From positions 2,080,965 through 2,144,964 of the forward strand of contig OX638295.1 of NCBI GenBank assembly GCA_951812345.1: a stretch of 64,000 nucleotides of DNA, read 5' to 3'. This stretch comes from Rhodothermales bacterium. GTDB taxonomy: Bacteria > Bacteroidota > Rhodothermia > Rhodothermales > VXPQ01. Below, in pieces: positions 1,973 through 40,883 of this stretch; within the stretch, counting starts at the first letter, position 1; every line of letters begins with the position of its first letter. The notes under the pieces are model-generated. The model saw only the letters and a list, made by a program, of their open reading frames with translations, was not told where the DNA came from and ran no database searches. A program made the position numbers and the translations under genes.

Positions 1973-2069
1973 TTGTATACAGTGTTGGTTTTGAGTACAT
2001 AATATACTATATAGTGTTGATTTTGGGCACATTGTATACAGTGTTGGTTTTGGATACATTGTATACAAT
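1973..2069. repeat. Three imperfect direct repeats centred on TTGTATACA
   Basis: TTGTATACAG occurs at 1973-1982 and 2032-2041, and the fully palindromic TTGTATACAA at 2059-2068. The first two are followed by TGTTGGTTTTG. A degenerate middle unit (TATATAGTGTTGATTTTG) lies around 2010. FCD-type GntR regulators such as UxuR/ExuR recognise this kind of palindrome. A GntR-type regulator is encoded at 10683-11864, so an operator array for the SMP-30 operon is a reasonable inference. Confidence 0.5.
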
Positions 2070-2144: not shown

Positions 2145-3134
2145 ATGGCCTCTTCGTCTCTGAAACTCGATGGCATTTCCTTCGTCGGCGAGGGGTTGCA
2201 CCGGCCTGAATGCGTGCTCTGCACAGGCACAGGTCTGGTCTTTACCGCCGACTGGCGAGGCGGGGTGGCTTGCCTCCGTCCCGACGGCTCGCAAACACTA
2301 TTTGAGGGGATTACAGAGCCCGGCCAGCCGCCCCTCCAACCCAACGGCATCGCCCTCGAACCGGACGGCTCATTTCTCCTGGCCGACCTGAGCGAGGCGC
2401 GGGCCGGCGTATGGCGGCTGCATCCCTCCTCCGGCCTCGTAGACCCCTTCCTTCTAGAACTCGATGGTCAGCCGCTCCCTCCCGTCAACTTCGTGTACCG
2501 GGACGTAGTGGGGCGCGTGTGGATCACGATCAGCACGCGGGTGCAGCCGCGGGCGCGCGACTACCGACCGACGGCCTCCACCGGTTTTATCGTGCTCGTA
2601 GCCGGAGGGCAGGCGCGCATCGTGGCCGACGAGCTTGGCTACACGAACGAGTGCCGGCTCGACCCCAGCGGATCCTGGCTATACGTCAACGAAACCTTTG
2701 CCCGCCGCCTCACGCGTTTTCGCGTTGGGGATGACGGATCGCTCGGAGGGGCCGAAACGGTGACCACGTTCGGGGCCGGCACCTTCCCGGATGGCCTCGA
2801 CTTCGACGTCGAGGGCGGCATCTGGATTACCAGCATCGTCTCTAACCGCATGATTCGAATCGCCCCTGACGGCGAGCAGACGATCGTCCTCGAGGACAGC
2901 GACCGTGATGACCTCGCCGAGGTTGAGGAGGCCTTCCAGGCGGGCGTGATGGACCGCCCTCACCTCGACCGTATCCGGAGCCGGCGCCTGCGGAGCATCT
3001 CCTCGCTGGCCTTCGGGGGACCTGACCTGAGAACCGTCTATCTCGGGTGTCTTCTCGGCGACCGTCTCGCCACCTTCCGCTCTCCCGTGGCGGGCGTGCC
3101 GCCGGTCCATTGGAACTATGATATAGAGGTATAA
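2145..3134 (+). CDS. SMP-30/gluconolactonase family protein
   Basis: Probable sugar-lactone hydrolase with a six-bladed propeller; 329 residues is normal for the family. The metal-binding residues expected of SMP-30 proteins are visible: Glu22 near the N terminus, Asn in TNECRLD and Asp in FPDGLDFD. There is no signal peptide, so it should be cytoplasmic. The dehydrogenase gene that follows starts 6 bases after its stop, making a two-gene operon. The start ATG has no clear Shine-Dalgarno sequence but is the only good one downstream of the GTATAC repeats. Family members act on different aldonolactones; the exact substrate cannot be read from sequence. With OtnK/OtnC nearby, a four- or six-carbon acid-sugar lactone is plausible. 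Confidence 0.85.
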   Translation: MASSSLKLDGISFVGEGLHRPECVLCTGTGLVFTADWRGGVACLRPDGSQTLFEGITEPGQPPLQPNGIALEPDGSFLLADLSEARAGVWRLHPSSGLVDPFLLELDGQPLPPVNFVYRDVVGRVWITISTRVQPRARDYRPTASTGFIVLVAGGQARIVADELGYTNECRLDPSGSWLYVNETFARRLTRFRVGDDGSLGGAETVTTFGAGTFPDGLDFDVEGGIWITSIVSNRMIRIAPDGEQTIVLEDSDRDDLAEVEEAFQAGVMDRPHLDRIRSRRLRSISSLAFGGPDLRTVYLGCLLGDRLATFRSPVAGVPPVHWNYDIEV

Positions 3135-3140: not shown

Positions 3141-4235
3141 ATGACCATAGACAACGAGCTGCGTATTGCCGTGCTGCCCGGAGACGGGATCGGGCGTGAG
3201 GTGATGGATGCAGCGTTGACGGTACTGGATGCACTGCAGCAGAAAATCGCCGGACTACACCTCAAGTACGACGTGCTTCCTGGAGGGGCGGCCTACTACC
3301 GCGACAGCGGGGTTGCCCTGCCCGACGAGACCCTTCGCGGGGCCGACGAGGCCGACGCGATCCTCTTCGGTGCGATGGGCCTGCCTGACGTACGCGGCGC
3401 CGACGGCACCGAGATCGTGCCGCAGCTTGACCTCCGGTTCCACTTCAACCTGTACGCCGGTGTACGCCCATACCGCTACCTGCGAGGCACGCCCAGCCCG
3501 CTGGCCGACCCCCGCGCCGAGACGATTGACTTCGTGCTCGTCCGCGAGTCTACCGAGGGCCTCTTCGCGAGCCGCGGCAAAGGGGTGGTCGAGGACGATG
3601 CCGTCGCGCGCGATATGCTGGTCATCACGCGCGCGACCTCGGAGCGGCTCTTCGACTTCGCCTTCCAGCTCGCGGCCCGGCGCAAGGAGCGGGGGCGCCC
3701 CGGCCGGGTCACGTGCGTGGACAAGGCGAATGTGTTCGCCTCCATGGCCTTCTTCCGCAAGATCTTCGATGAGCGGGCAGGCCGCTTTCCCGACCTCGAA
3801 GCCGACCACTGGTACGTCGACGCCATGGCCCTCGAACTGGTGCGGCGCCCCTGGGACTTCGATGTACTCGTCACCGAAAATATGTTCGGCGACATTCTCT
3901 CGGACCAGGCGGCCGCCCTCATCGGGGGGATGGGCTACGCCCCCTCGGGCGACATCGGCGACGACCACGCGCTCTTTCAACCTGCCCACGGCACCGCTCC
4001 AGACATCACCGGACAGGGTAAAGCCAACCCGACCGCCATGATCCTTTCGGTCGCGATGATGCTGGACTGGCTCGGCCGGCAGCACGGCGCCGAGGCCTGT
4101 ACGCGCGCCGCCATTCGTCTCGAAGAGGCCGTCGAACGCGCCTTCGCTGAGCGAGGTCTCCGTACCTGCGAATACGGCGGCCCGGACGGCACGGAAGTCG
4201 TCACTCGGGCCGTTCTGGACGCCCTGGCGACGTAA
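3141..4235 (+). CDS. Isocitrate/isopropylmalate dehydrogenase family protein
   Basis: NAD(P)-dependent hydroxyacid dehydrogenase of the beta-decarboxylating fold, 364 residues, cytoplasmic. Family signatures are clear: VLPGDGIGREV at the N terminus, VRESTEGLFASRG, the metal-binding stretch TENMFGDILSDQAAALIGGMG, and the cofactor-side motif HGTAPDITGQGKANPTA. The sequence around APSGDIGDDHALFQPAHGT resembles a subgroup annotated loosely as tartrate/malate-type rather than true LeuB or Icd. It follows the SMP-30 gene by 6 bases and converges on the OtnC/OtnK/cupin operon. I infer that it may oxidise the acid sugar feeding that pathway, since the usual LtnD-type dehydrogenase is not in this window. 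Substrate unproven. Confidence 0.85.
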   Translation: MTIDNELRIAVLPGDGIGREVMDAALTVLDALQQKIAGLHLKYDVLPGGAAYYRDSGVALPDETLRGADEADAILFGAMGLPDVRGADGTEIVPQLDLRFHFNLYAGVRPYRYLRGTPSPLADPRAETIDFVLVRESTEGLFASRGKGVVEDDAVARDMLVITRATSERLFDFAFQLAARRKERGRPGRVTCVDKANVFASMAFFRKIFDERAGRFPDLEADHWYVDAMALELVRRPWDFDVLVTENMFGDILSDQAAALIGGMGYAPSGDIGDDHALFQPAHGTAPDITGQGKANPTAMILSVAMMLDWLGRQHGAEACTRAAIRLEEAVERAFAERGLRTCEYGGPDGTEVVTRAVLDALAT

Positions 4236-4328: not shown

Positions 4329-4961
4329 TCAGGAAGGGAAGGCGCTGTGCAGCTCGGCGATCTGGTCGTGGGTCAGCAGACGCACGTTATGATCGTGAAG
4401 CAGCAGATAGAGGCGGGCTGTCTGCTCCAGTTCTTCCATGGCGTACGTGGCTCCGTCCAGAGACGTACCAGACACAACGGGGCCGTGGTTGGCCAGCAGC
4501 ATAGCGTGGTGCTCTTTCGCCTGCGCGCGTACGGCCGCAGCGAGGGTCCGGTCGCCTGGTCGGTAGTAGGGCACGAGCGGCAGTTTGCCAACCTTCATGA
4601 CGTAGTACGCCGTGAGGGGGGGCAGCACGTTGTGGGGATCAGCGTCGGCCAGGCACCCGACAGCCACAGAGTGGGTCGAGTGCAGATGCACGATCGCGCG
4701 ATCCTGCGGACGCTCTTCGTACAGGGCCAGGTGAAAAAATGCCTCCTTCGAGGGACGATCCCCTGAAAGCAGTTCGCCGTCGAACGACACTTTTGAGATC
4801 CGCTCAGGGGCGAGCCGTCCCATACAGGTGTTCGTCGGGGTAATGAGAAAACCGTCGTCGAGCCGCACGCTGATGTTGCCCGCACTGCCGTGCGCGAGGC
4901 CCCGTGTGTAGAGCGTTCGGCCGATGTCGGCGATCTGATCGCGCAGCTTATTCTCGTTCAT
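4329..4961 (-). CDS. otnC: 3-oxo-tetronate 4-phosphate decarboxylase (class II aldolase family)
   Basis: Class II aldolase/adducin-fold enzyme. In the established tetronate pathway OtnC decarboxylates 3-oxo-tetronate 4-phosphate to dihydroxyacetone phosphate. Metal-ligand histidines are visible in VHLHSTHSVAVGCL and NHGPVVSGTSL, with the phosphate-binding GSAGNISVR near the N terminus. I chose the ATG giving MNENKLRDQ (4961) because it matches where family members begin; an in-frame ATG at 4979 is possible. Either start overlaps the end of otnK, so the two are translationally linked. Assignment as OtnC rather than another class II aldolase (for example an L-fuculose-phosphate aldolase) rests mainly on the adjoining otnK. 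Confidence 0.85.
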   Translation of the reverse strand: MNENKLRDQIADIGRTLYTRGLAHGSAGNISVRLDDGFLITPTNTCMGRLAPERISKVSFDGELLSGDRPSKEAFFHLALYEERPQDRAIVHLHSTHSVAVGCLADADPHNVLPPLTAYYVMKVGKLPLVPYYRPGDRTLAAAVRAQAKEHHAMLLANHGPVVSGTSLDGATYAMEELEQTARLYLLLHDHNVRLLTHDQIAELHSAFPS

Positions 4962-6243
4962 CGAAAAGGTCAAAGGCATGGGTGAAGAAATCCTCTGCGC
5001 CGAAGTTGCCCGACTTGAGGGCGAGGCACAAGGGCGAGGAGGCGTGGGCGACCGAGGAGGAAGCCGTGATGATCCACGGTACCCCGGGCGCGATCTCCGG
5101 ACCGATACGCAGCGTACGTACGCCGAGGGCTGAAACGACGGCGCCGGAGGTTTCGCCCCCGGCTACCACGAGCCGACGTACGCCTGCGTCGACGAGCCCT
5201 TGGGCGATCCGGGCGAGGACCTGCTCGGTGAGCGCACCCGCCTGTTCCCGTCCGAGCCGTGCTTGCACGGCCGCAACCTCTTCGGGCGATGCGCTGGAGT
5301 AAATAAGCACAGGACCCTCTTCGAGACGTTCGCGCGCCCAGGATAACGCCTCAGAAGCAACGTCGTCCCCTCCCAGGCGGATTGGGTCGACCCGATAGGC
5401 TGGACGCGTCCGTCGCATAGACGCAACCTGTATCCGTGTAGCTTTGGAACAACTGCCGGCTAATACGGCCGCCTGTCCGTCCGTATGCGGTAGGGATGCA
5501 ACGGCATCTATGGAGTCCGACAGGAGGCCGCGCCGCCTGAAGTTCTCCGGCAGCCCCAAGGCCATCCCGGAACCTCCGGTCACGAGCGGCAGATCGGAGC
5601 AAGCCGCTCCGAGCGTCATCAGGTGCTCGTCTCGCAGGGCGTCGAGCAGGGCGCAACAGTGTCCTTCAGCGCGCAGCGCATCCAGGCGTCGCCGTACCGC
5701 CTCGGCTCCACGTCGCACCACGTCATAGGCAACTAGCCCGACAGAACCCCTCATTTGACGCGCAAGCACCCGTACCAGGTTTGCATCCCGCATGGGGGTA
5801 AGCGGGTGGTCGCGCATGCCGCTGTCGGAGAGTAGTTCACGGCCCACGAACAGATGGCCTCGATACACCGTGCGGGCATTTTCGGGAGCCGCAGGGCATG
5901 CCACCGTAAAGTCGCTGCCGAGCGCATCGAGTAGCGCCTCAAGGACTGGACCGATGTTGCCCTCGTCGGTAGAATCAAAGGTCGAGCCGTACTTGAAGAA
6001 GAACTGTCTGGCGCCCGCCGCCTGCAACTGGTTGAGAGCAGCCTGCGCCAGCAGAACGGCCTCTTCAGCCGGGATCGTGCGACTCTTGAGCGCCACTACG
6101 ATCGCATCCGCCTCGGGCAGATCCGTGGGCATCTCGGGCACGCCAATATACTGCACCGTGCGCATGCCATGCCGGACGAGTACGTTTGCCAGATCTGTCG
6201 CTCCAGTGAAGTCGTCCGCGATGCAGCCCAGAAGCAACGGCAT
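4948..6243 (-). CDS. otnK: 3-oxo-tetronate kinase (DUF1537/four-carbon acid sugar kinase)
   Basis: Phosphorylates 3-oxo-tetronate at C4, using ATP, for OtnC. The 431 residues match the family length. The N-terminal domain opens with GCIADDFTGATDLAN, the acid-sugar-binding signature with the paired Asp, and contains FFFKYGSTFDSTDEGNIG. The C-terminal nucleotide-binding domain ends with VVAGGETSGAVVSALG. It sits between the cupin (13-base gap upstream) and otnC (overlap downstream) in one minus-strand operon. DUF1537 also covers D-threonate and D-erythronate kinases; the decarboxylase neighbour favours the 3-oxo-tetronate branch over the PdxA2-type branch. Confidence 0.88.
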   Translation of the reverse strand: MPLLLGCIADDFTGATDLANVLVRHGMRTVQYIGVPEMPTDLPEADAIVVALKSRTIPAEEAVLLAQAALNQLQAAGARQFFFKYGSTFDSTDEGNIGPVLEALLDALGSDFTVACPAAPENARTVYRGHLFVGRELLSDSGMRDHPLTPMRDANLVRVLARQMRGSVGLVAYDVVRRGAEAVRRRLDALRAEGHCCALLDALRDEHLMTLGAACSDLPLVTGGSGMALGLPENFRRRGLLSDSIDAVASLPHTDGQAAVLAGSCSKATRIQVASMRRTRPAYRVDPIRLGGDDVASEALSWARERLEEGPVLIYSSASPEEVAAVQARLGREQAGALTEQVLARIAQGLVDAGVRRLVVAGGETSGAVVSALGVRTLRIGPEIAPGVPWIITASSSVAHASSPLCLALKSGNFGAEDFFTHAFDLFDERE

Positions 6244-6256: not shown

Positions 6257-6643
6257 CTAGATCGTAATAAAATCGCGCTTGGGAGCTGAGAAACTAATGA
6301 GCAGTACGGCCTGTTCCTCCCCGACGTTGATCGCCTGATGCACGAAGTTTCGCGGAATAATCACGGTGTCGCCTGCCCTCAAAGTCTCCATACGGCTGCC
6401 CTCGACAGTATGCTTGATCGTGCCTTGCAAGACGTGTACAACTTCTGAGCATTTGGTATGATAGTGTCTCGGAAGCGCCGCTCCGGGATTAATCTCACAG
6501 CGGCCAACCGACTGCTCAGTCGCCGAACCGACCGCATCGCTTGCAAAGAAAATAATACGCCCCCATTCGTGCTCGCTCGTCTCGGCCGCTTCGGCACGGA
6601 CGACGCCGGCACATACCGCAACCGGCTCAGTATAGTCGTTCAT
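6257..6643 (-). CDS. Small cupin-domain protein
   Basis: 128-residue single-domain cupin, first gene of the cupin-otnK-otnC operon. The cupin metal motifs are visible as ALPRHYHTKCSEVVHVLQG and the second motif around GDTVIIPRNFVHQAINVG. I start at the ATG at 6643 (MNDYTEPVAV); a longer in-frame extension to 6817 has no family-like sequence. Similar small cupins are found in acid-sugar operons, where they may act as isomerases or sugar binders; the reaction here is unknown. Confidence 0.8.
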   Translation of the reverse strand: MNDYTEPVAVCAGVVRAEAAETSEHEWGRIIFFASDAVGSATEQSVGRCEINPGAALPRHYHTKCSEVVHVLQGTIKHTVEGSRMETLRAGDTVIIPRNFVHQAINVGEEQAVLLISFSAPKRDFITI

Positions 6644-7042
6644 GGCAGGTCTTTGTTCAGATGACGTGGAAGTGACGATAGAGGATAGACTTGTTGTGGG
6701 TCCAGGGCGAGAGACGGCAGCAACCTTCGTAGTATGAGGACACCTTGAACAGAGTCGTATCCAGTGTACACACAGAATATGCGGTCGTCTGATTAAATAC
6801 CATTGGCCTGCCCTCATTTTCGGCAGAACTTCGCTTAATGCCTTTTTCCGGCTGGAACGCAGGTCTTGTTGAATTGTTAGTGTACAATGTATACATTCAC
6901 AACTTCAATCTCAACTGACGGCTCAGCCTTCCGCAACCGGGGGCCTGATTCCAGAACGGTGCGTGCCTGATGCGAAAGCGAGTACAAGACAACAAGAAGC
7001 AAGCTCGGCGCCGTGCACTCAGCCAATTAATGGAGACAGCAT
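6644..7042. promoter_or_regulatory. Divergent promoter region with GTAC-centred palindromes
   Basis: This 399-base region lies between the minus-strand cupin-otnK-otnC operon and the plus-strand MFS gene. It contains AATGTATACATT at 6886-6897, next to GTGTAC at 6880-6885, and the palindrome GTGTACAC at 6764-6771. These resemble the repeats upstream of the SMP-30 gene and the motif next to the regulator gene at 11864. I infer operator sites for the same regulator. No gene is visible in the stretch. Confidence 0.45.
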
Positions 7043-8320
7043 ATGAAAGCGGATGAGCCCAGGACGACGCTTATACCAACACGCTACCTGCTCGTCTTCG
7101 GCACCTTCTTGCTGTCGGTGCTGCTGTACATCGATCGGGTCGCCATTTCTGTAGCCGAGTCGAATATCCGGGGGGATCTCGGTTTGACCGAAACACAGAT
7201 GGGGTGGGTCCTTTCCGTCTTTGCGCTCGGCTACGCCCTCTTCCAGACTCCGGCCGGCATCCTGGCCGATCGTTTCGGACCGCGTCGCATTTTGTCAGCA
7301 GTCGTAACGTTCTGGTCGATCTTTACGGCCCTCACGGGTGCTGCCTTCAGCTTCATTTCGCTGCTCATCTACCGGTTCGTTTTCGGCGTCGGCGAGGCAG
7401 GCGCCTTCCCGGGGATAGCACGGGCGGTCTTTTCGTGGATCCCCATGAAAGAGCGCGGCCTCATCCACGGCATCAACTTTTCCGGCTCGCGCCTCGGAGC
7501 CGCCTTCGCCCTGCCGGTGGTGGCCTCGCTCATCGCCACCGTGGGATGGCGAATGACCTTTGTCATCTTCGGCGTCGTCGGCATCGGCTGGGCGGTGTTT
7601 TGGTTCTTCTGGTTCAGCGACGATCCCACGCACCACAAGCGCATCGCCAAAGCGGAACTGGATTACATCCTGGCAAACCGCCAGCAGGCGGACGCGGCGG
7701 ACAAGGCCGGCATCTCGATCGGCGCACTGCTGTCGTCGAAGAACATGTGGCTGGCGATGGGGCAGTATTTCTGCTCCAACTTCACCTTTTTCTTCGCCCT
7801 GACCTGGCTCTTTCCCCACGTCAAGGCCACCTACGGCCTCGACATTGTCGAGGCGGCGTTTTACTCTTCGGCGCCCCTGGTCGCCGGTGCGGTGGGCAAC
7901 TGGTTCTCGGGGTGGCTGGTCGACCGCATCTATGCGAGCGGCCACTGGAGGCTGTCCCGCAGGCTCCCCGCCGCCCTCGGCTTTGCGCTGGCTGCGATCG
8001 GACTCGTGGGCAGCATTTACATGGATACGGTCGGCAGCGCCATCTTCTTCCTGTCGATCGCCATCTTCGGCGCGGACATGACGCTGAGCCCATCCTGGTC
8101 GTTCTGCGTCGACATAGGTCGCAAGAATTCTGGCGCCGTCTCCGGAACGATGAACATGGCCGGCAACATCGGTTCATTCATCACGGCACTGGCCTTCCCC
8201 TACCTCTTTGCATGGACTGCATCGACGACGCCGTTCTTCTTTATCGGCGCCGCCCTCAACCTGGTCGCAATCTTCCTCTGGATGATGATGCAGCCGGAGA
8301 AAAAGCTGGAACAGCGGTAG
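7043..8320 (+). CDS. MFS transporter, anion:cation symporter (hexuronate/aldonate type)
   Basis: Inner-membrane secondary transporter of 425 residues with about 12 hydrophobic segments. The opening RYLLVFGTFLLSVLLYIDRVAISVA and the loop motif GILADRFGPRRILS are typical of the ACS family (GudP, ExuT, tartrate and galactonate carriers). GGAGA lies 9 bases upstream of the ATG. It is transcribed divergently from the cupin-otnK-otnC operon and shares its regulatory region, so it probably imports the acid sugar degraded there. The substrate cannot be told from sequence. Confidence 0.88.
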   Translation: MKADEPRTTLIPTRYLLVFGTFLLSVLLYIDRVAISVAESNIRGDLGLTETQMGWVLSVFALGYALFQTPAGILADRFGPRRILSAVVTFWSIFTALTGAAFSFISLLIYRFVFGVGEAGAFPGIARAVFSWIPMKERGLIHGINFSGSRLGAAFALPVVASLIATVGWRMTFVIFGVVGIGWAVFWFFWFSDDPTHHKRIAKAELDYILANRQQADAADKAGISIGALLSSKNMWLAMGQYFCSNFTFFFALTWLFPHVKATYGLDIVEAAFYSSAPLVAGAVGNWFSGWLVDRIYASGHWRLSRRLPAALGFALAAIGLVGSIYMDTVGSAIFFLSIAIFGADMTLSPSWSFCVDIGRKNSGAVSGTMNMAGNIGSFITALAFPYLFAWTASTTPFFFIGAALNLVAIFLWMMMQPEKKLEQR

Positions 8321-10682: not shown

Positions 10683-11864
10683 TCATAGATGTTCGACAAT
10701 GAAACGGGCACACCCCTGCACTTGCTCTACCAGGGTCTCAATCGGACCAGGCTGCACATGCACAGTGGGGATGAGAACGGAAATCGCTGCGACGATGGTG
10801 TTGCTGATTATTATAGGTACAGCTATAGCCTGGACGCCCTGTTGATACTCCCCATCCTCCCGAGCGAAGCGCTGCTCGCGTATGACCTGCAGCGATTGCA
10901 ACAGGGCTTCTATGTTGGTCATCGTCTTCGGGGTGAACGTTGCAAGGTCGATCTCCCCCAGTAGCTGCCGAATACCCGCCTCGTCCTTGTCCATGAGGAG
11001 TACCTTTCCCGCCGCCGTGGCATGTAGCGGCAGACGGGCGTCGTGGGGAAGCACCACACGGAGCGGCAGGCACCCCTCAGCCTGGTGCACCACGACCGCC
11101 TCCTGCTGGTCATGACAGACCACTATGACCGTCTCTTGGATCTCCTCGACAAGCTCGGAGACGCCCTTTCTAAGAACCTCCATAAAATGATCTGGCAGCG
11201 CTTCGACTGCAGCGAGTTGAATGGAGCGTATTTTCAGGTAACGACCGGATCTGCGGATATGCTGGACCATCGCCCGTTCAGCGAGATCAGCGTCATGCGC
11301 CTCCAGTGCATCGAGGATCGTGAGGTGCTCGGGCAATGTCTCTGCCGGCGGACGCAGCAGACCCTGCGCGAGTGCGATGCTAAGAATCTGGAACGAGTCC
11401 AGAATCTTCGTCAGCATTGGGTCCTCAACGATAGAGGAGAGATAATAGTGGAATTCCTGATCCGCCTTTCGATAGACTGCCCAGTCATCAGGCGTGGTCT
11501 GCTCTACGGCAGAGGTGATGAGCGAGCGCAGATAGGCGATGTGCTGCGGCTTGGCCCGTTCGGCCGCCAATCTGCAGACTAGCCCCTCCAACACGCCACG
11601 TATCTCCCATATGCTCGCCAATTCATCGTGCGTAAACGAGCGCACATAGGCGACGCCGCGCGACGCCATCTCTAAGAATTGTTGTTGGACCAGTGTGGAA
11701 ATCGCCCTGCGAAGAGGTGTACGGCTAATCCCGAGCCGTTCGGCGAGCGATTCCTGGACGATTTGCTCCCCCGGCCTCAGGACACCCTGCACGATCATAT
11801 TCCGGATCTCCTGATAAGCACGTTCGTCGAGCGAAGCATGCCCTGTAGAATTATCTCCTGTCAT
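10683..11864 (-). CDS. Fused regulator: GntR winged helix, FCD domain and IclR effector domain
   Basis: 393-residue transcription regulator. Residues about 13-76 are a GntR winged helix (AYQEIRNMIVQGVLRPGEQIVQESLAERLGISRTPLRRA). Residues 80-210 are an FCD ligand domain with likely metal ligands Asp135, His139, His180 and His202. Residues about 225-393 match an IclR effector domain: LPLHATAAGKVLL, a central TPKTMTN turn, and EYQQGVQAIAVPIIISNTIVAAISV. Each family normally pairs one DNA-binding domain with one sensor, so two different sensors on one protein is unusual. The frame is continuous, with no sign of sequencing error at the junction. Position and GTAC palindromes nearby suggest that it controls the acid-sugar and SusC/D genes; this is inference. 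Confidence 0.85.
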   Translation of the reverse strand: MTGDNSTGHASLDERAYQEIRNMIVQGVLRPGEQIVQESLAERLGISRTPLRRAISTLVQQQFLEMASRGVAYVRSFTHDELASIWEIRGVLEGLVCRLAAERAKPQHIAYLRSLITSAVEQTTPDDWAVYRKADQEFHYYLSSIVEDPMLTKILDSFQILSIALAQGLLRPPAETLPEHLTILDALEAHDADLAERAMVQHIRRSGRYLKIRSIQLAAVEALPDHFMEVLRKGVSELVEEIQETVIVVCHDQQEAVVVHQAEGCLPLRVVLPHDARLPLHATAAGKVLLMDKDEAGIRQLLGEIDLATFTPKTMTNIEALLQSLQVIREQRFAREDGEYQQGVQAIAVPIIISNTIVAAISVLIPTVHVQPGPIETLVEQVQGCARFIVEHL

Positions 11865-11875: not shown

Positions 11876-11893
11876 TTGGTACACGTCGTACAC
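11876..11893. promoter_or_regulatory. Candidate autoregulatory operator upstream of the fused regulator
   Basis: Just upstream of the regulator start (11864) the plus strand reads TTGGTACACGTCGTACAC, with two GTACAC units nine bases apart. It resembles the GTATAC and GTGTAC palindromes at 1973-2069, 6764-6897 and 28767-28774. Placement supports autoregulation, but nothing proves binding. Confidence 0.35.
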
Positions 11894-13916: not shown

Positions 13917-15905
13917 CTAGCGTGCCCGTACGAGTATAACCCAGTCCTCTCGCACATCCTCGGGCGGCATCCCGAGGGAGACCATTCCCGGCCCCGCGAC
14001 CTCAACGACGCGGCCACCCTGTATGCGCGGCTGCCTGATCGTGGGGACTGCAGAAAGCACAGTGGCTGGTTCTCGCGAATAGGTCTCCTCGGTTGCCAGA
14101 ACGCGGCCTTGCTGCAGAGCACCGCCCGTGCGCGGGTTATACCATTCGACCGTGAAGGCCCCCTGGTGGTCCTGGAGATTGAGTGTGGACGCCCCTCCGT
14201 CCGGCAGGTAGATAACGTATACCTCACCGGGATCGGTGAAGACGAAATCCTTCTCGCTCCGCGTCAGGTTATTGGCATTATTCATCTCCCAGAACGGGAT
14301 CTCGTTTTCGCGGTAGAAGTCCATAGCGTACCGCGTGTAATTCCACAGCGCGTCCCGGCTGCGCCAGTCCTCGGCATTGAGGTCGTTCTGCTCCTCCCCG
14401 TACCCGAAGTACCACTCGACGCCGTCCCCGCCGGCGGCGATCGTGGCCCAGTATGTCGCCCTGGCTTCGTCCTGATTGTAGTTGTCGTCAAAGTCGTCCG
14501 TCGTCACGCCTAGACCGCCGGTTCCCGCCTCATCGAGCGATACGTTCCATTGTCGGTCGGCATCGTTCGACTGGTTGACGAACCTGGAGACGACTTCGAA
14601 GTTGTGCCACGGCCGCATGCTGTTCGTCTGGACGGACGGACCCTCCAGATATTCATATCCCAGTAGAGGCGTATAGACCTCGTCATACCGATTCGGGTAC
14701 GAATGAATGACGACAGGGTGGTCGTAAGGATCGAGCATATGAATGTACTTCGCATCCGCCTTGGCGTGCGTCTGATCAGGATCATTCAGTTCCAGCATGA
14801 GATCGTGTTCTTCCGCGAGGTTCCAGTTGAGCGCGTGGTGATGGCCGAAGCGGGCGATAAGCTCACGATAGTAAAGCTTGCGCTGCGGGCCTAGTTCGCC
14901 CCCGTCGAGGAGCTGGTCATTCTCCGTCTCATGCGTCTTAACGTGAATAAAGAGGCCGAGACGATCTGCGTGGCTCAGCACGATATTCCACTGCGCCAGC
15001 TTCGAGACGTCATAACGATCCATTTCCGTGTGCGTAATCCACGGCCACACGTTCTTGCCGTCTCCACCCGCCGTTAGGCTCAAAAACGAAAAGGCATTCA
15101 TGCCTTTCCCGGCCAGGTAGTTGAGCGCACCGATGAGCCCCTTGCCCTTCTCCCCCTGCCACGTCGGATCACCCGGCTCCCAGTCCTGCACGTGCGCGCT
15201 GTACGCCTTGAGCGGCGTGGCTCCACGACGATCCCTGTACTGCGTACTGCCCCAGAGCAGAACGTCTCCGTAGCTGTGGTCGAATTCGCCGCTGTGGGTA
15301 TAGGTACCGTCGAAGTCCTTATAGCCCAGTAGCGTCTCGGGAGCGTCGGCCCCGCCTTTCATGAACCACTCGCCGTTGTCGAAGCGCAGGTAACGCTCGC
15401 CCACATAGCGCAGCATCCCCTTGCCCCGAAAGTCACGACCGCTCTTGTCTGTCTCTGCCACAGTAAATGTACCCTGAGCCCCGTCGAAAGCCGTCGCCTC
15501 TCCCGCCGTCGGACTCAGGCTGATCGCCACGTCGTCGCCCTGGCGGAATGAGGCTGTGTAGCTCCACGAGCCCGTCCTTGAGGGCGTAAAGTGCGCGCGC
15601 CACTTGTTGCCGGAGGTGGCGCCGGTCTCGGCGGCGTCGCCGTCGGCGGCGAAGTAGCCGGGCACGACGAGGGCATCCTGGCCGTCTTCGTGGCGGAAGG
15701 CGACGTTGAGGCGGTAGTAGCGGAAGGGGTTGGGTTCGCCGGTCTCGCCGGCGGCGGGGCCGTCGAAGGTGATCGTCACCGGGTGCCAGCGCTTGAGTTC
15801 ACCCGTAACCTGGCCTTCTTGCTGGGCCAGGGCGACACCTGGCCCAATCATGATCAGGGCAAACAGGGTTGCCGGAAGTATTCTTTTTAGCATAGTTCTT
15901 CTCAA
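13917..15905 (-). CDS. DUF5060-domain glycoside hydrolase-like protein, secreted
   Basis: 662 residues with a signal peptide ending around GVALAQQ. Residues about 30-145 form an N-terminal beta domain of DUF5060 type (EGQVTGELKRWHPVTITFDGPAAGETGEPNPFRYYRLNV). A TIM-barrel region of DUF4038-like character follows, with MKGGADAPETLLGY, MNAFSFLSLTAGGDGKNVWPW, ALNWNLAEEHD and VSLDEAGTGG. The Glu residues in LAEEHD and SLDEAG are candidate catalytic acids. The tail is a small beta domain ending EDWVILVRAR. An alternative start lies at 15893. Related proteins act on plant or algal polysaccharides; I cannot assign a linkage. Confidence 0.8.
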   Translation of the reverse strand: MRRTMLKRILPATLFALIMIGPGVALAQQEGQVTGELKRWHPVTITFDGPAAGETGEPNPFRYYRLNVAFRHEDGQDALVVPGYFAADGDAAETGATSGNKWRAHFTPSRTGSWSYTASFRQGDDVAISLSPTAGEATAFDGAQGTFTVAETDKSGRDFRGKGMLRYVGERYLRFDNGEWFMKGGADAPETLLGYKDFDGTYTHSGEFDHSYGDVLLWGSTQYRDRRGATPLKAYSAHVQDWEPGDPTWQGEKGKGLIGALNYLAGKGMNAFSFLSLTAGGDGKNVWPWITHTEMDRYDVSKLAQWNIVLSHADRLGLFIHVKTHETENDQLLDGGELGPQRKLYYRELIARFGHHHALNWNLAEEHDLMLELNDPDQTHAKADAKYIHMLDPYDHPVVIHSYPNRYDEVYTPLLGYEYLEGPSVQTNSMRPWHNFEVVSRFVNQSNDADRQWNVSLDEAGTGGLGVTTDDFDDNYNQDEARATYWATIAAGGDGVEWYFGYGEEQNDLNAEDWRSRDALWNYTRYAMDFYRENEIPFWEMNNANNLTRSEKDFVFTDPGEVYVIYLPDGGASTLNLQDHQGAFTVEWYNPRTGGALQQGRVLATEETYSREPATVLSAVPTIRQPRIQGGRVVEVAGPGMVSLGMPPEDVREDWVILVRAR

Positions 15906-15974: not shown

Positions 15975-17078
15975 TCAAGCATGCCCTTCAACGTGTATAT
16001 CCAGCAATGCGTGCTGTGCCTCTGGTGCATCTATCCGTACGACCTGGTCGAGGGCGGTCGACTCGTAGCAGGCCTCAACGACACGGAGTGTCTTGAGATA
16101 ATCCGCGCCGCCGCTCTCAAACGGAGTTCCATTAAGAAACCCGTCGACGAAGTGCCGTTGTACGAAATAGCAGCTATCTCCGCCTAAACCACGATCTATA
16201 TGCGGGTATTCGTGATCGTATGCCGGCTGCCCAAGAGGCTTGATACGCATACGGCCATCCGGGTGAAGGCACAAGCTGGCATTACTGGCATCCACGCGCA
16301 TGGTCCCGAAGGTGTACCGTACAGGAGCGCTCGTGTCGAGCTCGTTGTACCTATTGGCATCCAGCACGGCGGTAGCCCCGTTCTCGAAGCCGAACACGAT
16401 CTGTCCACTGTCCTCACCTGCGATCACATCATTCAGACGGCGCAGCCGTGCATAAACCGTTTGCACCTCACCCAATAGAAAGCGGAAGGCGTCAATGAAA
16501 TGCACGCCCGTCTCGAAAACGAAGAGACGGGGGTACTCGCGAAAGTAGGGCTGGCGATCCAGATAAGCATTATCACCCCACCCGTCCCCGGTGCGCATGC
16601 AGAAGGAGATGGAGAAGAGCTCGCCGAGCACGCCCTGGTGATGGAGCCGCTTCACCTCACGGTACCACGGCTGCCAGCGCCAGTTCTCGTGCACCATAAA
16701 ACGTACGCCGGCCCCCTCTACGTTCTGCACGATCTGCTGCGCCTCCTCGTACGTGGGAGCGAGTGGCTTTTGGCAGATCACATGAATGCCAAGCTGGGCT
16801 GCATACGTGCAGAGTTCGAGGTGTGCGTCTGGCTGAGTGATGATGTCCACGAAGTCAGGCTGCTCACGGTCGAGCATCTCTCGGTAGTCGGTATAGGCGT
16901 GAGGAATACCGAACTGCTCGGCTGCCGCCTGGGCCTTTCCCTCATCCAGATCGGCCACCGCTACCAGATCGACTTGCGGGATGCGGCTCCACGCCTCATA
17001 CTGGAAGCGACTGAAGTAACCAGCACCGATCCCCACTCCACGCAACTTAGTACCGGACTGCTCCGAAGATGCTCGCAT
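15975..17078 (-). CDS. Gfo/Idh/MocA family oxidoreductase
   Basis: 367-residue NAD(P)-dependent sugar oxidoreductase. The Rossmann part has VGIGAGYFSRFQYEAW near residue 15 and ADLDEGKAQAAAEQFGI. The catalytic-lysine motif appears as HVICQKPLAPT, where most members have EKP. The C-terminal substrate domain contains HENWRWQPWYREV, FETGVHFIDAFRFLLGE and VDGFLNGTPFESGGADYLKTLRVVEA. No signal peptide, so probably cytoplasmic. It lies 27 bases downstream of a lipoprotein gene and 69 bases upstream of the DUF5060 glycosidase gene, in line with an oligosaccharide-processing operon. Substrate unknown. Confidence 0.88.
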   Translation of the reverse strand: MRASSEQSGTKLRGVGIGAGYFSRFQYEAWSRIPQVDLVAVADLDEGKAQAAAEQFGIPHAYTDYREMLDREQPDFVDIITQPDAHLELCTYAAQLGIHVICQKPLAPTYEEAQQIVQNVEGAGVRFMVHENWRWQPWYREVKRLHHQGVLGELFSISFCMRTGDGWGDNAYLDRQPYFREYPRLFVFETGVHFIDAFRFLLGEVQTVYARLRRLNDVIAGEDSGQIVFGFENGATAVLDANRYNELDTSAPVRYTFGTMRVDASNASLCLHPDGRMRIKPLGQPAYDHEYPHIDRGLGGDSCYFVQRHFVDGFLNGTPFESGGADYLKTLRVVEACYESTALDQVVRIDAPEAQHALLDIHVEGHA

Positions 17079-23532: not shown

Positions 23533-25332
23533 TTAATAACCGGGGTTTTCTACCAATTGTCCTTGCCGATCGATTCGAGCGTTGGTGATCGGATTATAAT
23601 AATGTTCCGGGCGAAACTGGCGCTGGACCTGTTCAGCACCAAAAGGGATGAAGTAAAATTGTCCTGTCTCATGGTGTAGAATAGTCCGAACTCCTTCCAC
23701 CATTTGACCATCCAACATGTCTTGCGCAATTCTCCACCTTCGCAGATCATCCCAGCGATGACCTTCAAATACCAACTCACTCGTTCTTTCTGTTCTGACA
23801 CGTTCGCGAGTTATGCTTGATGCATCCAACGGTATCAAGCCAACCCGGTCTCGCGTGGCGTTAAGATACATGGCCGCACCTGCCGCATTTCCCAATTCGA
23901 ACTCACTCTCTGCCGCGATCAAGTACATCTCGCCCAATCGCAATTCCTTCCAATTGTAAGACTCTGTATCATCCCCTGCCAGTGGGATCTCGTCTACATA
24001 TTTGTAGAGCAACAATCCCGTGGAGGGAAAGAAATGATTAGCCTGCCTTCGGCTGGCTTCTCCAACCGTTGGCGTACCCTGATAATCTATACCATTTTCC
24101 GAGATCACATTGTCTGGGTTGGTCCCCCCCGTTGTCGGATCCAGGCCTTCATAAGACTGGATAGTTACACCCGCATATACGTCACCCTGCAACAGAACTT
24201 GTCCATGTAGTCTCGGATCTTTGTTCGCCCAGGGTGCAGCACCGTCTTCATACAAATGATCCGGTCCTAATGGTGGGTTACTGAATGTACCATCTATATT
24301 TTCGAAGCGCTGTAAATGCCCTAACGTAGGATTTATTTCCGAACCCTGTCCTTCTGAAAGGGGAGTCGGCTGATTTTGATGAGAGAAGGAATGGTCAACT
24401 TCAACGCCATCATACTTCTTTTCAAATATCGCTTCCGCGTTCTCATCCTCAACGAAAACACGCCAGTAATTCCGGGCCTTATCAGAACCTTGAAGCAGCG
24501 AATATTGACCTGAATTGATGACTTCCTGGGCTGCAGTACTCGCCTTCCTGTAGAACTCATCAGCCCGGTTAGCCGGGATACCGACCAGCCCATTTAATTG
24601 AACATCCCCAAACTTGGCAATTGAAGCTGACCAAAGATTCGCCCGCGCTTTATAGGCATAAGCCGTCCAACGATTAACACGGCCGGTTGGTACGGAACTA
24701 TGCGCCAGCATATCGGCCGCAGCTTGCAATTCAGTGTCTATAAAGTCAGCAATCGCTTCTTCCGTGCTTCTTACTACATATTGCTCGGGGATCTCTCCAA
24801 ACGGATCGAGCACCACATCGACCAAAGGCACGCCCCCGTAGCGTCTTTGCATCTTGTAATAGACGGCCGCCCTCAACGTCCGGACTTCGCCTTCAAGCTG
24901 TCTCTTGAAACTATCCCCTACCGGAGCTTCCCGGATACTTTCTATAAAGAAATTCAGATCTCTGATATACTGATAATTCCATAACCCTTCACAATCGTTA
25001 TTTGAATTCATCCCGCCATGTGTTCGGCAACCCACAAAAGCATTTCCTCTCTCAGTGGCCAGATCATGCTCACCGATAACGCCATCAAAAATATCCCCAC
25101 CGTTTGGGTTTGTAAAACCGTTAAAAGGAAATCCTGCGTACAAGTCCGCAACCAACGCCCCTATAAGAGCCTCATCTTGAAATACTTGATCGCCAGGAAC
25201 CCGATCCTGCGGGCTCTCTTCCAGGTCTATGATGCTGTCACAAGACGCCAACAACAGTAAGAGTACCATCAGGAGCGGCAGTCTCCCTTTGTATACGGGT
25301 CGTCTGTTTTGCATAGCGGTAGTCGGTTTCAT
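23533..25332 (-). CDS. SusD/RagB-family outer-membrane lipoprotein
   Basis: 599 residues; lipobox LLASC with Cys31. It caps the SusC barrel and delivers oligosaccharide to it. The SusD TPR-like N-terminal region is evident (TLRAAVYYKMQRRYGGVPLVD, NRWTAYAYKARANLWSASIAKFG), as is the typical C-terminal ELVFEGHRWDDLRRWRIAQDML and the closing RPEHYYNPI segment. The start at 25332 or the next ATG at 25314 would both work. It is 57 bases downstream of susC. Base composition is AT-richer than in flanking genes, as for susC. Confidence 0.93.
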   Translation of the reverse strand: MKPTTAMQNRRPVYKGRLPLLMVLLLLLASCDSIIDLEESPQDRVPGDQVFQDEALIGALVADLYAGFPFNGFTNPNGGDIFDGVIGEHDLATERGNAFVGCRTHGGMNSNNDCEGLWNYQYIRDLNFFIESIREAPVGDSFKRQLEGEVRTLRAAVYYKMQRRYGGVPLVDVVLDPFGEIPEQYVVRSTEEAIADFIDTELQAAADMLAHSSVPTGRVNRWTAYAYKARANLWSASIAKFGDVQLNGLVGIPANRADEFYRKASTAAQEVINSGQYSLLQGSDKARNYWRVFVEDENAEAIFEKKYDGVEVDHSFSHQNQPTPLSEGQGSEINPTLGHLQRFENIDGTFSNPPLGPDHLYEDGAAPWANKDPRLHGQVLLQGDVYAGVTIQSYEGLDPTTGGTNPDNVISENGIDYQGTPTVGEASRRQANHFFPSTGLLLYKYVDEIPLAGDDTESYNWKELRLGEMYLIAAESEFELGNAAGAAMYLNATRDRVGLIPLDASSITRERVRTERTSELVFEGHRWDDLRRWRIAQDMLDGQMVEGVRTILHHETGQFYFIPFGAEQVQRQFRPEHYYNPITNARIDRQGQLVENPGY

Positions 25333-25389
25333 AACGAGAGTACCCTGTTTCGTTGGTTATAAACGTCGGTATTGGGGCTGAATTACGCT

Positions 25390-28300
25390 TTAGAAATCCA
25401 CCTCAATACCGAAATTGAGCATGCGAACCTGTGGGTGATAGTTCCCAAAAAACTGTGCGGGACCCGTATCAATCTCAGGATCAAAGAAATCGATGTCTGT
25501 GAACGTTAATAAATTGGTGCCTCCAACATATACTTTCATCCTGTTCGCACCGAGTACCCCGATAAGGTCTATGGGAAGGGTATAACTGAATTGTAGCTGT
25601 TTGAGGCGTAAGTAGGATCCATTGATAAGAAATATATCTACATCCGGATCGAACCTTCCCGATGCCCTTGGCCACCTTGCCTCCTCCGCACTTACTGGAG
25701 ACAGACCAAAATCATTTTCCGGTACCATTGAATCGTATAGATGGTGCTGAAGAGCAACCCCATTAGCTGGGAACGGCTCCTCATACTCACTCCAGTCAAC
25801 ATTATAGCCGAAAAGAGCAGCACCCTGCCAGAACGTGGACAACTCGAATCCTTTCCAGCCAACACTCAGATCAAATCCGTAATTCAATCTTGGCTCAGTG
25901 CCGGAAGAAGCAAGGTACATATCCGCATCGGTGATCCTTCCATCCCCGTTTCTATCCACGACTCTTGCATCTCCTATCTGAATCGTACGATTTGCTTGAC
26001 CGTCAATATCCGCCCAATTATCGATTTCGTCCTGGGACGTAAAAAGCCCATCCGATTCAAGGTAAAATTGCTGCACAAATTGACTACCATAATGATATCT
26101 CATGTCTTGCGGTGGCCGGCCAATTCTAGTTCCTAATCGCTCGGCTTCTTTATTGACGAAATTTGGCTCGTCTGTAAATTTTATTTCTTCCTCGTGAATT
26201 CCAAGAACACCACCAATCGAATACGTCCAACCGCCTTGAATCGCATTGGTATGGCGTAGACTTAAATCGAACCCTCTGTTTTGAAATTCCTGGAAATTTT
26301 GTAGAGGCAATTCTGCTCCTACGATAGGCGGAACCTCTAATATGCGCCGACCTAATATGTCGAAGCGGTCTCGTTTAAAGACATCAAAGCTGCCTGCTAA
26401 TAACCCATCCCATAAAACGGCGTCTAAACCGAAATTTATGGAGTTCATTTTTTCCCATGTAATATCCGGGTTGGGAATCCCATCACTGGCGATTGTTCGC
26501 AGGACGGTCTTACCATCGAAAACAACAAAATCATCGAACGAATAGGTTTGGAGGAACTGGAAGTTGCCGGCTCCATCAAACCCAAGCCGTCCCCAGGAAG
26601 CCCGAAGCTTTAAGTCCGTCAGGAAATCAAACGTATCACTATTCTGTAAAAAGGATTCTTCTGTTACATTCCATGCCCCGGAAACAGCGGGGAAGAACCC
26701 CCACCGACTATCCTTCGGGAACCGGGCAGAGCCATCATATCTGGCGTTTACTTCAACATTATATTTATCGGCATAACTGTAGCTAATTCTACTAATATGG
26801 CCCATTCTTTTATTCCCTTCTACGAAATCACTATTGAATTGCTGACTCTGAGGCCCTGCGATCAATTGTGGAATCTGGAACTGAAATTGCTCACGTCTTG
26901 CATCAAACCTTCGGAAGTCTTCCTCGATATATTCAAACACATACATACTTCTTAACGTATGATTCGCCCCAAATGAATGATTCCCCTCCAAAAAATACTG
27001 CGCGTTCAACCTTTCGGCCTGAGTACTTCTTCGTACGACCCGTGTATCTCTATTAAGCGCACGGACAAACTCATGCTCTTGCGTCTGGGCATTGAACCGA
27101 AATTCAGGGGCTCTTTTTTGAAACATCTTGTCTTCTATATTAGACTTTTGATAATTAAAAACCGCCCTTGTTCTTAATCCCAAGCCAAGATCATATTCAC
27201 CGCCGAGCTTAACATCAGAAAACTCGTTTATATACTCCAGAGAACCGCCAATATCTGCATCCGCTAAATTCAAAGGATTTACAGTTTGTCCTGCAGGCGC
27301 GCCTCTTGGATTATTTAGATGCCCACCAGGAAGTTCTACTATCGAATGAAATGGACGCCAACGTAGGCTACGGGCGAAAATTCCCTGCCCCTGTGACCAA
27401 TCTGTACCCTCAAATTGGTTCCTTGGACCGTAGAAATCTTGTCGATTAAAACTCATATCAAGGCTAAGATCAAACCGTTCTGTAGCCTCAATATCAACGT
27501 TTCCACGAACAGTATAGCGGTCATAACGAGTATCTGTTTCACCAGTGACATCGCGTTCCATGCCCGTTTGGCCGAACCAGCTCCCGGACACATAATAAAG
27601 TACACGGTCACTTCCTCCTCTGAGAGATAAATTATGAGTCGTCATCGGCGCGTTATCACGAATAGCCAAATCAAACATATCTACACTTGGATAATTTTCA
27701 GGATCTGATCCATCATTAAATTGCCTGAACAGCTCGACCGTCTCATGGGACCAATTAAGATCTCGACCGTTATCAAGAAGCTCGATGTTATACAAGGCCA
27801 TGTGTTGCCAGGAGGGAATCGCGTCGGGGACCACTGTCAAACTTTGAAGACCTACCTCTGCTCTGTAAGATAACTGAATGTCTCCAGGAGTTCCACGTTT
27901 GGTTTCAACAAGGACAACACCATTTCCAGCTCTTGCTCCATAAACAGCTGCGCCTGCAGCATCTCTCAGTATATTTATTTCTGCTATGTCGTTAGGATTC
28001 AAGTCTTCAAAAACCGACTTGTCAACAGGCAATCCATCAACAATAAAAAGAGGTTCGCCAAATCCACGTATATTGATATTAGTCTTATTATCACCAGGTT
28101 GGCCATTCCGATTTTTAATAACAACTCCCGCGACTCGACCTTGCAAGGCCTGCCCTACAGTTGGCGTTGCAACCCTGACTAAATCTTCCGGATTTGCTCT
28201 GCCAATACTTCCGGTTACCTGAGCTCTTCTTTGCTCACCGTACCCGACGACGAGCACATCCCCCAGGCCCGTGACGGTAGGTAGCAGCGCCACATCGACG

Positions 28301-28593
28301 ACGCTTCTTCCCGCTATGGCAACCTCTTGGGTTTCGTAGCCGATAAAGGAAAACACCAGCGTGTCGCTAAGCGAAGGGACTGCGAGTGAATAGCGACCCT
28401 CGCCATCGGTCGCCGTGCCGACGGTCGTGCCCTGGATCGAAACATTCACCCCCGGCAGCGTGGCTCCCGTCTCGCCGTCCACTACACTGCCTTCGACTTC
28501 CGGCATCGATTGACTGCTGGCCGTTGGGGCGAAACCAGCCAGCATAATCATGGAGAGAATGAGGGCTCCAGGGATTTTCGTAAGCGCGTTCAT
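25390..28593 (-). CDS. SusC/RagA-family TonB-dependent outer-membrane receptor
   Basis: 1067 residues. Signal peptide, then a carboxypeptidase-regulatory-like domain (VEGSVVDGETGATLPGVNVSIQG, residues about 33-110), the TonB-box region VLVVGYGEQRR, the plug (INIRGFGEPLFIVDGLPVDKSVFEDLNPNDIAEINILRDAAGAAVYGARAGNGVVLVETKRG) and a 22-strand barrel ending in the aromatic-terminated NFGIEVDF. It transports an oligosaccharide across the outer membrane together with the SusD protein encoded next. It is AT-richer than the flanking dehydrogenase gene, hinting at acquisition by transfer. The glycan is unknown. Confidence 0.95.
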   Translation of the reverse strand: MNALTKIPGALILSMIMLAGFAPTASSQSMPEVEGSVVDGETGATLPGVNVSIQGTTVGTATDGEGRYSLAVPSLSDTLVFSFIGYETQEVAIAGRSVVDVALLPTVTGLGDVLVVGYGEQRRAQVTGSIGRANPEDLVRVATPTVGQALQGRVAGVVIKNRNGQPGDNKTNINIRGFGEPLFIVDGLPVDKSVFEDLNPNDIAEINILRDAAGAAVYGARAGNGVVLVETKRGTPGDIQLSYRAEVGLQSLTVVPDAIPSWQHMALYNIELLDNGRDLNWSHETVELFRQFNDGSDPENYPSVDMFDLAIRDNAPMTTHNLSLRGGSDRVLYYVSGSWFGQTGMERDVTGETDTRYDRYTVRGNVDIEATERFDLSLDMSFNRQDFYGPRNQFEGTDWSQGQGIFARSLRWRPFHSIVELPGGHLNNPRGAPAGQTVNPLNLADADIGGSLEYINEFSDVKLGGEYDLGLGLRTRAVFNYQKSNIEDKMFQKRAPEFRFNAQTQEHEFVRALNRDTRVVRRSTQAERLNAQYFLEGNHSFGANHTLRSMYVFEYIEEDFRRFDARREQFQFQIPQLIAGPQSQQFNSDFVEGNKRMGHISRISYSYADKYNVEVNARYDGSARFPKDSRWGFFPAVSGAWNVTEESFLQNSDTFDFLTDLKLRASWGRLGFDGAGNFQFLQTYSFDDFVVFDGKTVLRTIASDGIPNPDITWEKMNSINFGLDAVLWDGLLAGSFDVFKRDRFDILGRRILEVPPIVGAELPLQNFQEFQNRGFDLSLRHTNAIQGGWTYSIGGVLGIHEEEIKFTDEPNFVNKEAERLGTRIGRPPQDMRYHYGSQFVQQFYLESDGLFTSQDEIDNWADIDGQANRTIQIGDARVVDRNGDGRITDADMYLASSGTEPRLNYGFDLSVGWKGFELSTFWQGAALFGYNVDWSEYEEPFPANGVALQHHLYDSMVPENDFGLSPVSAEEARWPRASGRFDPDVDIFLINGSYLRLKQLQFSYTLPIDLIGVLGANRMKVYVGGTNLLTFTDIDFFDPEIDTGPAQFFGNYHPQVRMLNFGIEVDF

Positions 28594-28882
28594 TGCCGTA
28601 TCAGCGTTTTGTTAGAATAATTCCCGCAGTTTGATAACGAAAGGTTGGCTACGCCACTGCCTGCATTTCTGCAGGGTATGAAGGCCCGGGGGCTTTCGTC
28701 GCTGCCCATGCCCAAGTGGGGCGTGAACAGCACGAACAGCCGTGTTTTTGCAGTGCTGTATTCGGTGTGTACACCGTGTACTGCGCTGGGTATAGTGTAT
28801 GACTTAAGTACCTCAAAGTCAAGGCAAGGATAGAATTTTTTTTATCCCGCTATTTTCCGCCTTCCTTGAGGGAACGACCCCG
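28594..28882. promoter_or_regulatory. susC upstream region with a GTGTACAC palindrome
   Basis: The palindrome GTGTACAC lies at 28767-28774, inside CGGTG...CACCG outer arms, with a second GTGTAC at 28776. The same type of site occurs near the SMP-30, MFS/cupin and regulator genes. A poly-T run at about 28835-28843 follows the dehydrogenase stop and may help end its transcription. No gene is visible. Confidence 0.45.
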
Positions 28883-29917: not shown

Positions 29918-30116
29918 GGCAACCGTTTCGTTCAGCGTCTGTCCACGGGGCGATTGCCCCCGCGCATTGGCCCTTACTTACATACCGCCTGAAAACCGGG
30001 TTCCGTCCTGCCCGACAAGGACGCCTTCGCAAGATATAGATAAAGGAACCCGGAAGCCATTCGCCGGATTTACCCTTTGCGGCGCCGGTTACGCGCTGCG
30101 GGCCTGCCACATTGCT

Positions 30117-30181
30117 TCGTCATTCCTTGCCAGCGGACCCCTCTCAGCCTCTGAGCTTTGCGGACGTAATCAGAGTATCCT
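30117..30181. repeat. Dispersed island repeat, full-length copy A
   Basis: About 65 bases beginning CGTCATTCCTTGCCAGCG and ending TAATCAGAGTATCC, with a small hairpin CTCAG-CCT-CTGAG inside. It matches the copy at 45824-45887 with about five differences. It ends 29 bases before the IolA-type start. On the minus strand it carries AAGGA followed by ATG, as at 45828, but here the following frame stops after 17 codons. Confidence 0.7.
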
Positions 30182-30210
30182 TTTTCATAAAATATTCTCG
30201 CTCTGACGCT

Positions 30211-31686: not shown

Positions 31687-31710
31687 TTCTCCAATCTCCC
31701 CGGTCAGGGC

Positions 31711-33901: not shown

Positions 33902-33902
33902 A

Positions 33903-35291: not shown

Positions 35292-35301
35292 CCAGCCCGA
35301 C

Positions 35302-40855: not shown

Positions 40856-40883
40856 TAATTGTTTCATCCAACCGGAGGACGCC

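Follow-up and report, generated by a model that had tools for sequence, protein, structure and literature searches.

A GntR-FCD-IclR_C regulator likely to control a sugar-acid cassette in a Rhodothermales bacterium

Bacterial transcription factors generally combine a domain that binds DNA with one companion domain, and the accessible part of PMC5882156, from which this description is taken, counts 76 different companion domains for the GntR family and 80 for the IclR family. Since both families pair with many domains, an unusual combination has precedents in kind. For regulators with an FCD domain, excerpts of two papers give metal sets of three histidines in Tm0439 and of an asparagine plus three histidines in Ps5454 (both PMC7674646) and in Atu1419 (PMC7797058), and the former excerpt also reports that D-galactonate binding by DgoR (D146, H150, H195) requires a divalent metal. 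The DNA sites of the FadR subfamily, in the available section of PMC4494728, consist of TKGT/ACMA boxes, often with an extra half-site 7–12 nt away. According to the accessible portion of PMC11323563, the GntR-type GlcR and the IclR-type BhcR of Paracoccus denitrificans regulate successive steps of a single hydroxy-acid pathway, glycolate and then glyoxylate. An excerpt of PMC2864759 has the names separately. A sequence-only reading of the locus studied here had stated that it knew of no described example with this domain order; none surfaced in our literature text search either, and the statement holds for open-licence full text, which is what that search covered.

The regulator, P0001, lies within a 64-kb stretch of DNA (the window) from a genome consisting of one contig of 2.8 Mb (G000). 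The frame and its parts are:

10683..11864, minus strand: three-domain regulator P0001, 393 codons (393 aa) in a single frame
11643..11825, minus strand: GntR winged helix, residues 14-74 (PF00392, E 1.9e-15)
11253..11612, minus strand: FCD domain, residues 85-204 (PF07729, E 4.1e-22)
11193..11243, minus strand: linker, residues 208-224
10698..11177, minus strand: IclR_C effector domain, residues 230-389 (PF01614, E 9.1e-32)

The single 393-codon frame at 10683-11864 had already been recognised in the sequence-only reading, which gave no strand; it is present, on the minus strand. The domains proposed there, a GntR wing, an FCD domain with candidate metal ligands and a complete-looking IclR effector domain, all exceeded the Pfam gathering scores: PF00392 reached 56.7 bits at the N-terminus (cut-off 27), PF07729 79.4 bits after the winged helix (cut-off 24.3), which places the FCD domain internally and not at the C-terminus, and PF01614 110.4 bits (cut-off 24), covering model positions 12-172 of 174. 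The PF01614 match falls within residues 225-393, the span in which an IclR effector had been expected, and the two strings by which that domain had been recognised, ATAAGKVLL and GVQAIAVPI, correspond to residues 282-290 and 343-351. The IclR-type HTH (PF09339) scored 18 bits, short of its cut-off of 22, and its match lies inside the GntR wing; the regulator therefore has one DNA-binding domain, and on its PF09339 score it is not classed as an IclR-family member. The candidate metal ligands of the FCD domain are D135, H139, H180 and H202. A search against the sequences of solved structures (E up to 0.1) gave 45 distinct matches, none of which had its best stretch across both effector domains: on the FCD side the stretches ended at or before residue 218, and on the IclR side they started at or after residue 193. 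The closest solved FCD chain was 7xp0, which we take to be PmiR. A single-sequence AlphaFold model of the regulator had a pLDDT of 39.1 and was unusable for the fold. The three-domain GntR-FCD-IclR_C architecture is certain.

The same fusion occurs in G001, a second genome of the same genus (the family is represented by six genomes, G000-G005, all of one genus). The two proteins are equally long (393 aa against 393 aa) and align with 187/393 identical residues (48%) and no gap columns, the G001 frame being stop-free. Identity is 59% in the wing (residues 1-76), 63% in the FCD domain, 29% in the linker and 32% in the IclR domain, which scores 121.3 bits against PF01614 in the G001 homologue; all four candidate metal ligands are kept. 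The neighbours of the G001 gene partly differ from those in the window: the transporter gene is adjacent and divergent, a DUF5060 protein lies beyond it, and an isomerase-like gene is found on the other side. That P0001 arose by an assembly or gene-calling artefact merging a GntR-FCD gene with an IclR gene could be suspected from the presence of full-length matches in just 2 of 244 class genomes. This explanation is nevertheless extremely improbable, given the fusion at 48% identity among partly different neighbours in G001, the absence of an IclR-type HTH between the domains, and the lack of any further IclR_C match (E up to 0.001) in either genome. An assembly join, which the sequence-only reading had named as a danger, was rejected because the second genome has the same join, colinear and stop-free. 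We also rejected an internal start yielding two proteins: within codons 191-240 the only start-type codons (ATG, GTG or TTG) are ATG 199 and ATG 228, neither has a GGAGG-like stretch before it, and residue 228 is not methionine in the homologue.

The GntR-FCD-IclR_C architecture is rare in the class and phylum sampled. The full regulator gave one match in its own genome, and a search for other proteins with the same three-domain order, which had been proposed as a check, returned one further fusion, that of G001. At E up to 1e-35 the regulator was matched in 2 of 114 genomes of the order and in 2 of 394 genomes of a phylum sample; a two-sequence profile (E up to 1e-30) was matched in 7 of 244 genomes of the class, twice over the full length, once in the FCD domain only and four times in the IclR domain only. 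In a phylum sample of 394 genomes, 30 IclR_C matches were listed (E up to 1e-10) from 25 genomes; 28 of the 30 belong to frames of 246-294 aa, and the frames longer than 300 aa are the two fusions only. Within the genus, IclR_C (E up to 0.001) was found in 2 of the 6 genomes, always in the fusion, and G002-G005 had no match at that threshold. These figures describe the window's phylum, in which some genomes are incomplete; other phyla were covered through plasmid records and weak pattern scans. Among 72,556 plasmid records searched, none of the 1556 matching ones had a single locus that covered 80% of the query, and scans of genome and viral contigs for exact short-peptide patterns confirmed no relative, which is a weak negative. 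A match on a Paroceanicella plasmid, covering residues 11-286 in one tblastn piece, was rejected: the alignment crossed a stop codon, and the protein is a 219-aa GntR-FCD protein, not a fusion.

The genes around the regulator point to sugar-acid catabolism:

2145..3134, plus strand: SMP-30/gluconolactonase-like (SGL) protein (PF08450)
3141..4235, plus strand: isocitrate/isopropylmalate/tartrate-type dehydrogenase (PF00180; below every NCBIfam cut-off shown)
4329..4979, minus strand: 3-oxo-tetronate 4-phosphate decarboxylase, OtnC type (NF043034, 328 bits, cut-off 250)
4948..6243, minus strand: 3-oxo-tetronate kinase of the DUF1537 family, OtnK type (NF043035, 617.7 bits, cut-off 350)
6257..6817, minus strand: cupin protein (PF07883)
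7043..8320, plus strand: MFS transporter whose nearest model is that of the D-galactonate transporter subfamily (255 bits, below the cut-off of 395)
13917..15905, minus strand: DUF5060/collagen-bind-2 protein; a protein with these two domains also lies near the G001 fusion
15975..17078, minus strand: Gfo/Idh/MocA-type oxidoreductase
23533-28593: SusC/SusD pair

The cupin gene probably starts at an inner ATG near 6643. The kinase and the decarboxylase exceed the equivalog cut-offs for OtnK (NF043035) and OtnC (NF043034) of a tetronate cassette, and among the scanned neighbours none scored up to the cut-off of a tetronate dehydrogenase or isomerase model. From this gene content we infer a cassette of the tetronate type, and the regulator likely controls it. 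A bigger sugar-acid/deoxysugar island follows at 28883-44071, with a Zn-dehydrogenase, an aldehyde dehydrogenase, a PfkB kinase, an FGGY kinase, a UxaE tagaturonate epimerase (PF16257, 434.7 bits) and a protein that by eye resembles rhamnose isomerase and has no Pfam match at 1e-10. A frame at 38122-40284 on the minus strand joins class II aldolase and short-chain dehydrogenase domains; it presumably resembles rhamnulose-phosphate aldolase/lactaldehyde dehydrogenase proteins.

Upstream of the cassette genes, the window contains TGTnTACA units in tandem with a 9-bp period. The operator-like sites are:

2024-2040 and 2051-2067, plus strand: two operator-like tandems with a spacing of 27 bp, upstream of the genes for the SGL protein and the dehydrogenase
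6756-6772, minus strand: operator-like tandem upstream of cupin-OtnK-OtnC
6879-6897, plus strand: operator-like site (tandem at 6879-6895) upstream of the MFS transporter
11879..11893, minus strand: weak operator-like site GTGTACGACGTGTAC, some 15 bp before the start of the regulator
28757-28782, plus strand: operator-like units that overlap, located before the SusC-type gene

These sites fit the TKGT/ACMA boxes with extra half-sites described for the FadR subfamily. The first two form part of a 27-bp direct repeat (2024-2067) before the gluconolactonase-like gene, with an operator-like tandem in each copy. In the window, 5 tandem matches scored at least 13/16, against 0.017 per dinucleotide shuffle (60 shuffles), and 6 scored at least 12/16, against about 0.35 per shuffle in the same number of shuffles. 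When up to 3 mismatches were allowed, the G001 locus (L003) held 10 tandem matches, where 0.02 would be expected; the best of them, TGTCTACAATGTCTACATT, sits between the divergent regulator and transporter genes, and the counterpart of the window's transporter site agrees with TGTNTACAATGTNTACATT at every position. The regulator's own site, GTGTACGACGTGTAC, shows more than two departures from TGTNTACANTGTNTACA and is missing from the genome-wide rows at up to 2 mismatches; autoregulation through it is a candidate feature.

Genome-wide at up to 2 mismatches, G000 gave 20 rows (13+7), whereas the reversed pattern gave 4. The rows merge to 14 sites, 5 of which lie inside the window (binomial 1e-5); it should be underlined that this value is optimistic and the enrichment partly circular, since the tandem pattern was derived from a window site. 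G001 gave 29 rows against 4 for the reversed pattern, and 12 of the 29 fall within 8 kb around the fusion. Matches and reversed controls in the fusion-less genomes were 4 and 5 in G002, 2 and 4 in G003, 13 and 2 in G004, and 9 and 6 in G005; two of the four fusion-less genomes are thus also raised. No cluster of sites was seen among the G002-G005 rows, G004 being in 670 contigs, which could hide one. The stricter pattern GTNTACRAYGTNTACM was searched in 10 genomes and found 4 times in G000, twice in G001 and once each in G004, G005 and G036, with no match in the other five and none for its reversed control in any of the 10. A perfect TGTTTACAGTGTTTACA tandem lies outside the window and far from the cassette at G000:C1:1450343-1450359. 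A further string, GTCTACAACGTATACA, is shared by three genomes of the genus, at G001:C2:50715, G005:C1:1481406 and G004:C186:9550, and the last two of these genomes lack the fusion; it is perhaps another regulator's site or part of conserved coding sequence. G001 has no FCD protein besides the fusion (E up to 0.001), G000 has the fusion and one other, which could bind similar sites, and FCD matches above the cut-off numbered one each in G003, G004 and G005 and none in G002.

A two-domain relative of the regulator was found through the cassette transporter (7043-8320). Counting G000 itself, 6 of the 244 genomes of the class encode a relative of this transporter at E up to 1e-90. In G184, a genome of a different family of the class that is 76% complete, the contig with the transporter relative encodes a GntR-FCD protein of 216 aa in which IclR_C found no match. 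This protein is 37% identical to the regulator over 202 aa and keeps D135, H139, H180 and H202. Compared with the window, the contig shows 53% identity for the transporter, 52% for the oxidoreductase, 77% for an FG-GAP protein and 37% for the dehydrogenase; its sugar-acid kinase can be placed in the DUF1537-type family only through a weak NCBIfam match (71.6 bits against a cut-off of 450), so that the cassette is considered related and not identical. No tandem was present on the G184 contig at up to 3 mismatches, and its 8 single TTGTnTACAA sites (4.46 expected) are a number reached in 23 of 200 shuffles; the G036 contig L018 had 2 single sites against 0.81 expected. On the transporter contigs of G034, G036 and G241, which are short, no GntR-FCD frame was seen by eye among the listed ORFs of at least 180 aa. 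Because a distant member of the class has a GntR-FCD regulator with a related cassette, the IclR domain was probably joined later, in this genus's lineage, to a GntR-FCD regulator of the cassette; alternatively, the tail may have been lost in the G184 lineage. The best stand-alone IclR proteins of the class are 35-40% identical and come from 6 genomes of one genus in the same order, and no donor of the domain was identified within the class.

With regard to the ligand pockets, the last two candidate FCD histidines of the regulator are 22 residues apart, as in Tm0439, Ps5454 and Atu1419. From the set of an aspartate and three histidines, together with the DgoR precedent, we infer that the FCD domain would hold a sugar acid on a metal. 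In the IclR_C domain, the positions of Asp212, Cys222, Ser239 and Ser241, which we take to be the keto-acid-binding residues of E. coli IclR, are occupied by E336, A346, S362 and L364, leaving Ser239 alone retained of the four; the G001 homologue has E, S, G and T there and keeps none, and KdgR has D, C, S and S. Given these replacements, a keto-acid ligand of the IclR type seems unlikely, and a different ligand is possible. Two pocket-loop stretches (277-290 and 336-343), picked after the alignment was viewed, are identical between the window and G001 fusions at 18/22 positions, against 36/147 in the rest of the domain; the corresponding figures for IclR and KdgR as a control are 8/22 and 42/147. 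Each fusion also shares 12/22 pocket-loop positions with KdgR (35 or 38/147 outside), and the fusions share 11 and 10/22 with IclR (31 and 43/147 outside). The conservation of these loops between the fusions favours a retained IclR_C pocket, but their likeness to KdgR marks the signal as partly a family signature.

Taken as a whole, we give a somewhat better than even chance to a working in which the GntR-FCD-IclR_C transcription factor controls the sugar-acid cassette, and probably itself, with IclR_C either reading a second molecule or coupling dimers. Dimers, or tetramers bridged by IclR_C, would bind the tandem sites and repress the genes for transport, tetronate catabolism and glycan uptake; repression over activation is assumed here from the usual behaviour of such regulators. 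A sugar acid on the FCD metal would lift repression, and IclR_C, appended to a two-domain ancestor, would read a second small molecule or, less likely, merely couple dimers, so that induction could hinge on two pathway states. Its sharper form is a two-input logic gate on one chain: the metal-bearing FCD domain would respond to the sugar acid coming in, IclR_C to another metabolite, either downstream or competing, and the operators would need the combination; we regard this version as a real possibility that falls a little short of even. The sequence-only reading had suggested that two pathway metabolites are integrated, perhaps an acid sugar and a downstream product. The sugar acid has support from context, with OtnK and OtnC above their cut-offs and an operator-like site upstream of their operon, and the integration of two metabolites is plausible: the conserved pocket loops speak for it, and the identity of 32% in the IclR half, compared with 63% in the FCD domain, and the largely replaced keto-acid residues speak against it.

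The same divergence of the IclR half and the same replacements would also fit an IclR_C domain that senses nothing and clamps two FCD dimers together, leaving ligand sensing to the FCD domain. The distribution of the tandems agrees with such a clamp, in that the 9-bp period occurs in both fusion genomes and not on the contig of the two-domain relative, and FCD assemblies beyond one dimer have precedents in the Atu1419 tetramer (excerpt of PMC7797058) and in NanR dimers on GGTATA repeats (excerpt of PMC8012715). Atu1419 and NanR, however, assemble without an IclR domain, and the pocket-loop stretches are the best-conserved part of IclR_C. Moreover, PobR, an IclR member that acts on p-hydroxybenzoate genes, likewise aligns an alanine with Cys222, so the replacements fit a different ligand as well; we consider the clamp unlikely, yet deserving of attention. 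An ordinary GntR-FCD repressor with a passively fused, nearly functionless IclR_C tail would account for the low conservation of the tail and for the tail-less relative in G184. A useless tail of 170 residues should tend to erode, though, and this one is full length, has neither stops nor gaps between homologues that are 48% identical, and scores above 110 bits against IclR_C in each fusion, which leaves a passive tail quite improbable.

If the two-input reading is true, the locus would show a bacterial one-component regulator before and after it acquired a second sensor. The fusion and its two-domain relative form the corresponding pair, on which the effect of adding a sensor is directly measurable, and the fusion could serve as a template for two-input sugar-acid biosensors. 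Among known systems, the FadR-subfamily FCD regulators (DgoR, Atu1419, Tm0439 and 7xp0) resemble the regulator in the winged helix plus FCD domain, in the metal set of an aspartate or asparagine and three histidines, in a GT/AC-type operator (a candidate here) and in the catabolic context of sugar acids or hydroxy acids. The solved chains with a full match to winged helix and FCD are, however, 215-265 aa long and have one effector domain, to which the present regulator adds a second, unrelated one. With the IclR family (KdgR, AllR, IclR and PobR/PcaU) it shares a complete IclR_C domain, the closest solved chain being KdgR (1ysp, E 9.6e-19), but it has no IclR-type HTH above the cut-off and would bind DNA through a GntR wing; in addition, the Cys222 and Ser241 positions are changed in both fusions and Ser239 in one. 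The DUF1537 tetronate pathways are alike in having the kinase and the decarboxylase above the NCBIfam cut-offs, and differ in that the scanned neighbours gave no match up to the cut-off for a tetronate dehydrogenase or isomerase; an isocitrate/tartrate-type dehydrogenase is present. GlcR and BhcR, as far as the accessible text on them goes, are two separate proteins that act on separate gene clusters, whereas here both sensor types are found on one chain.
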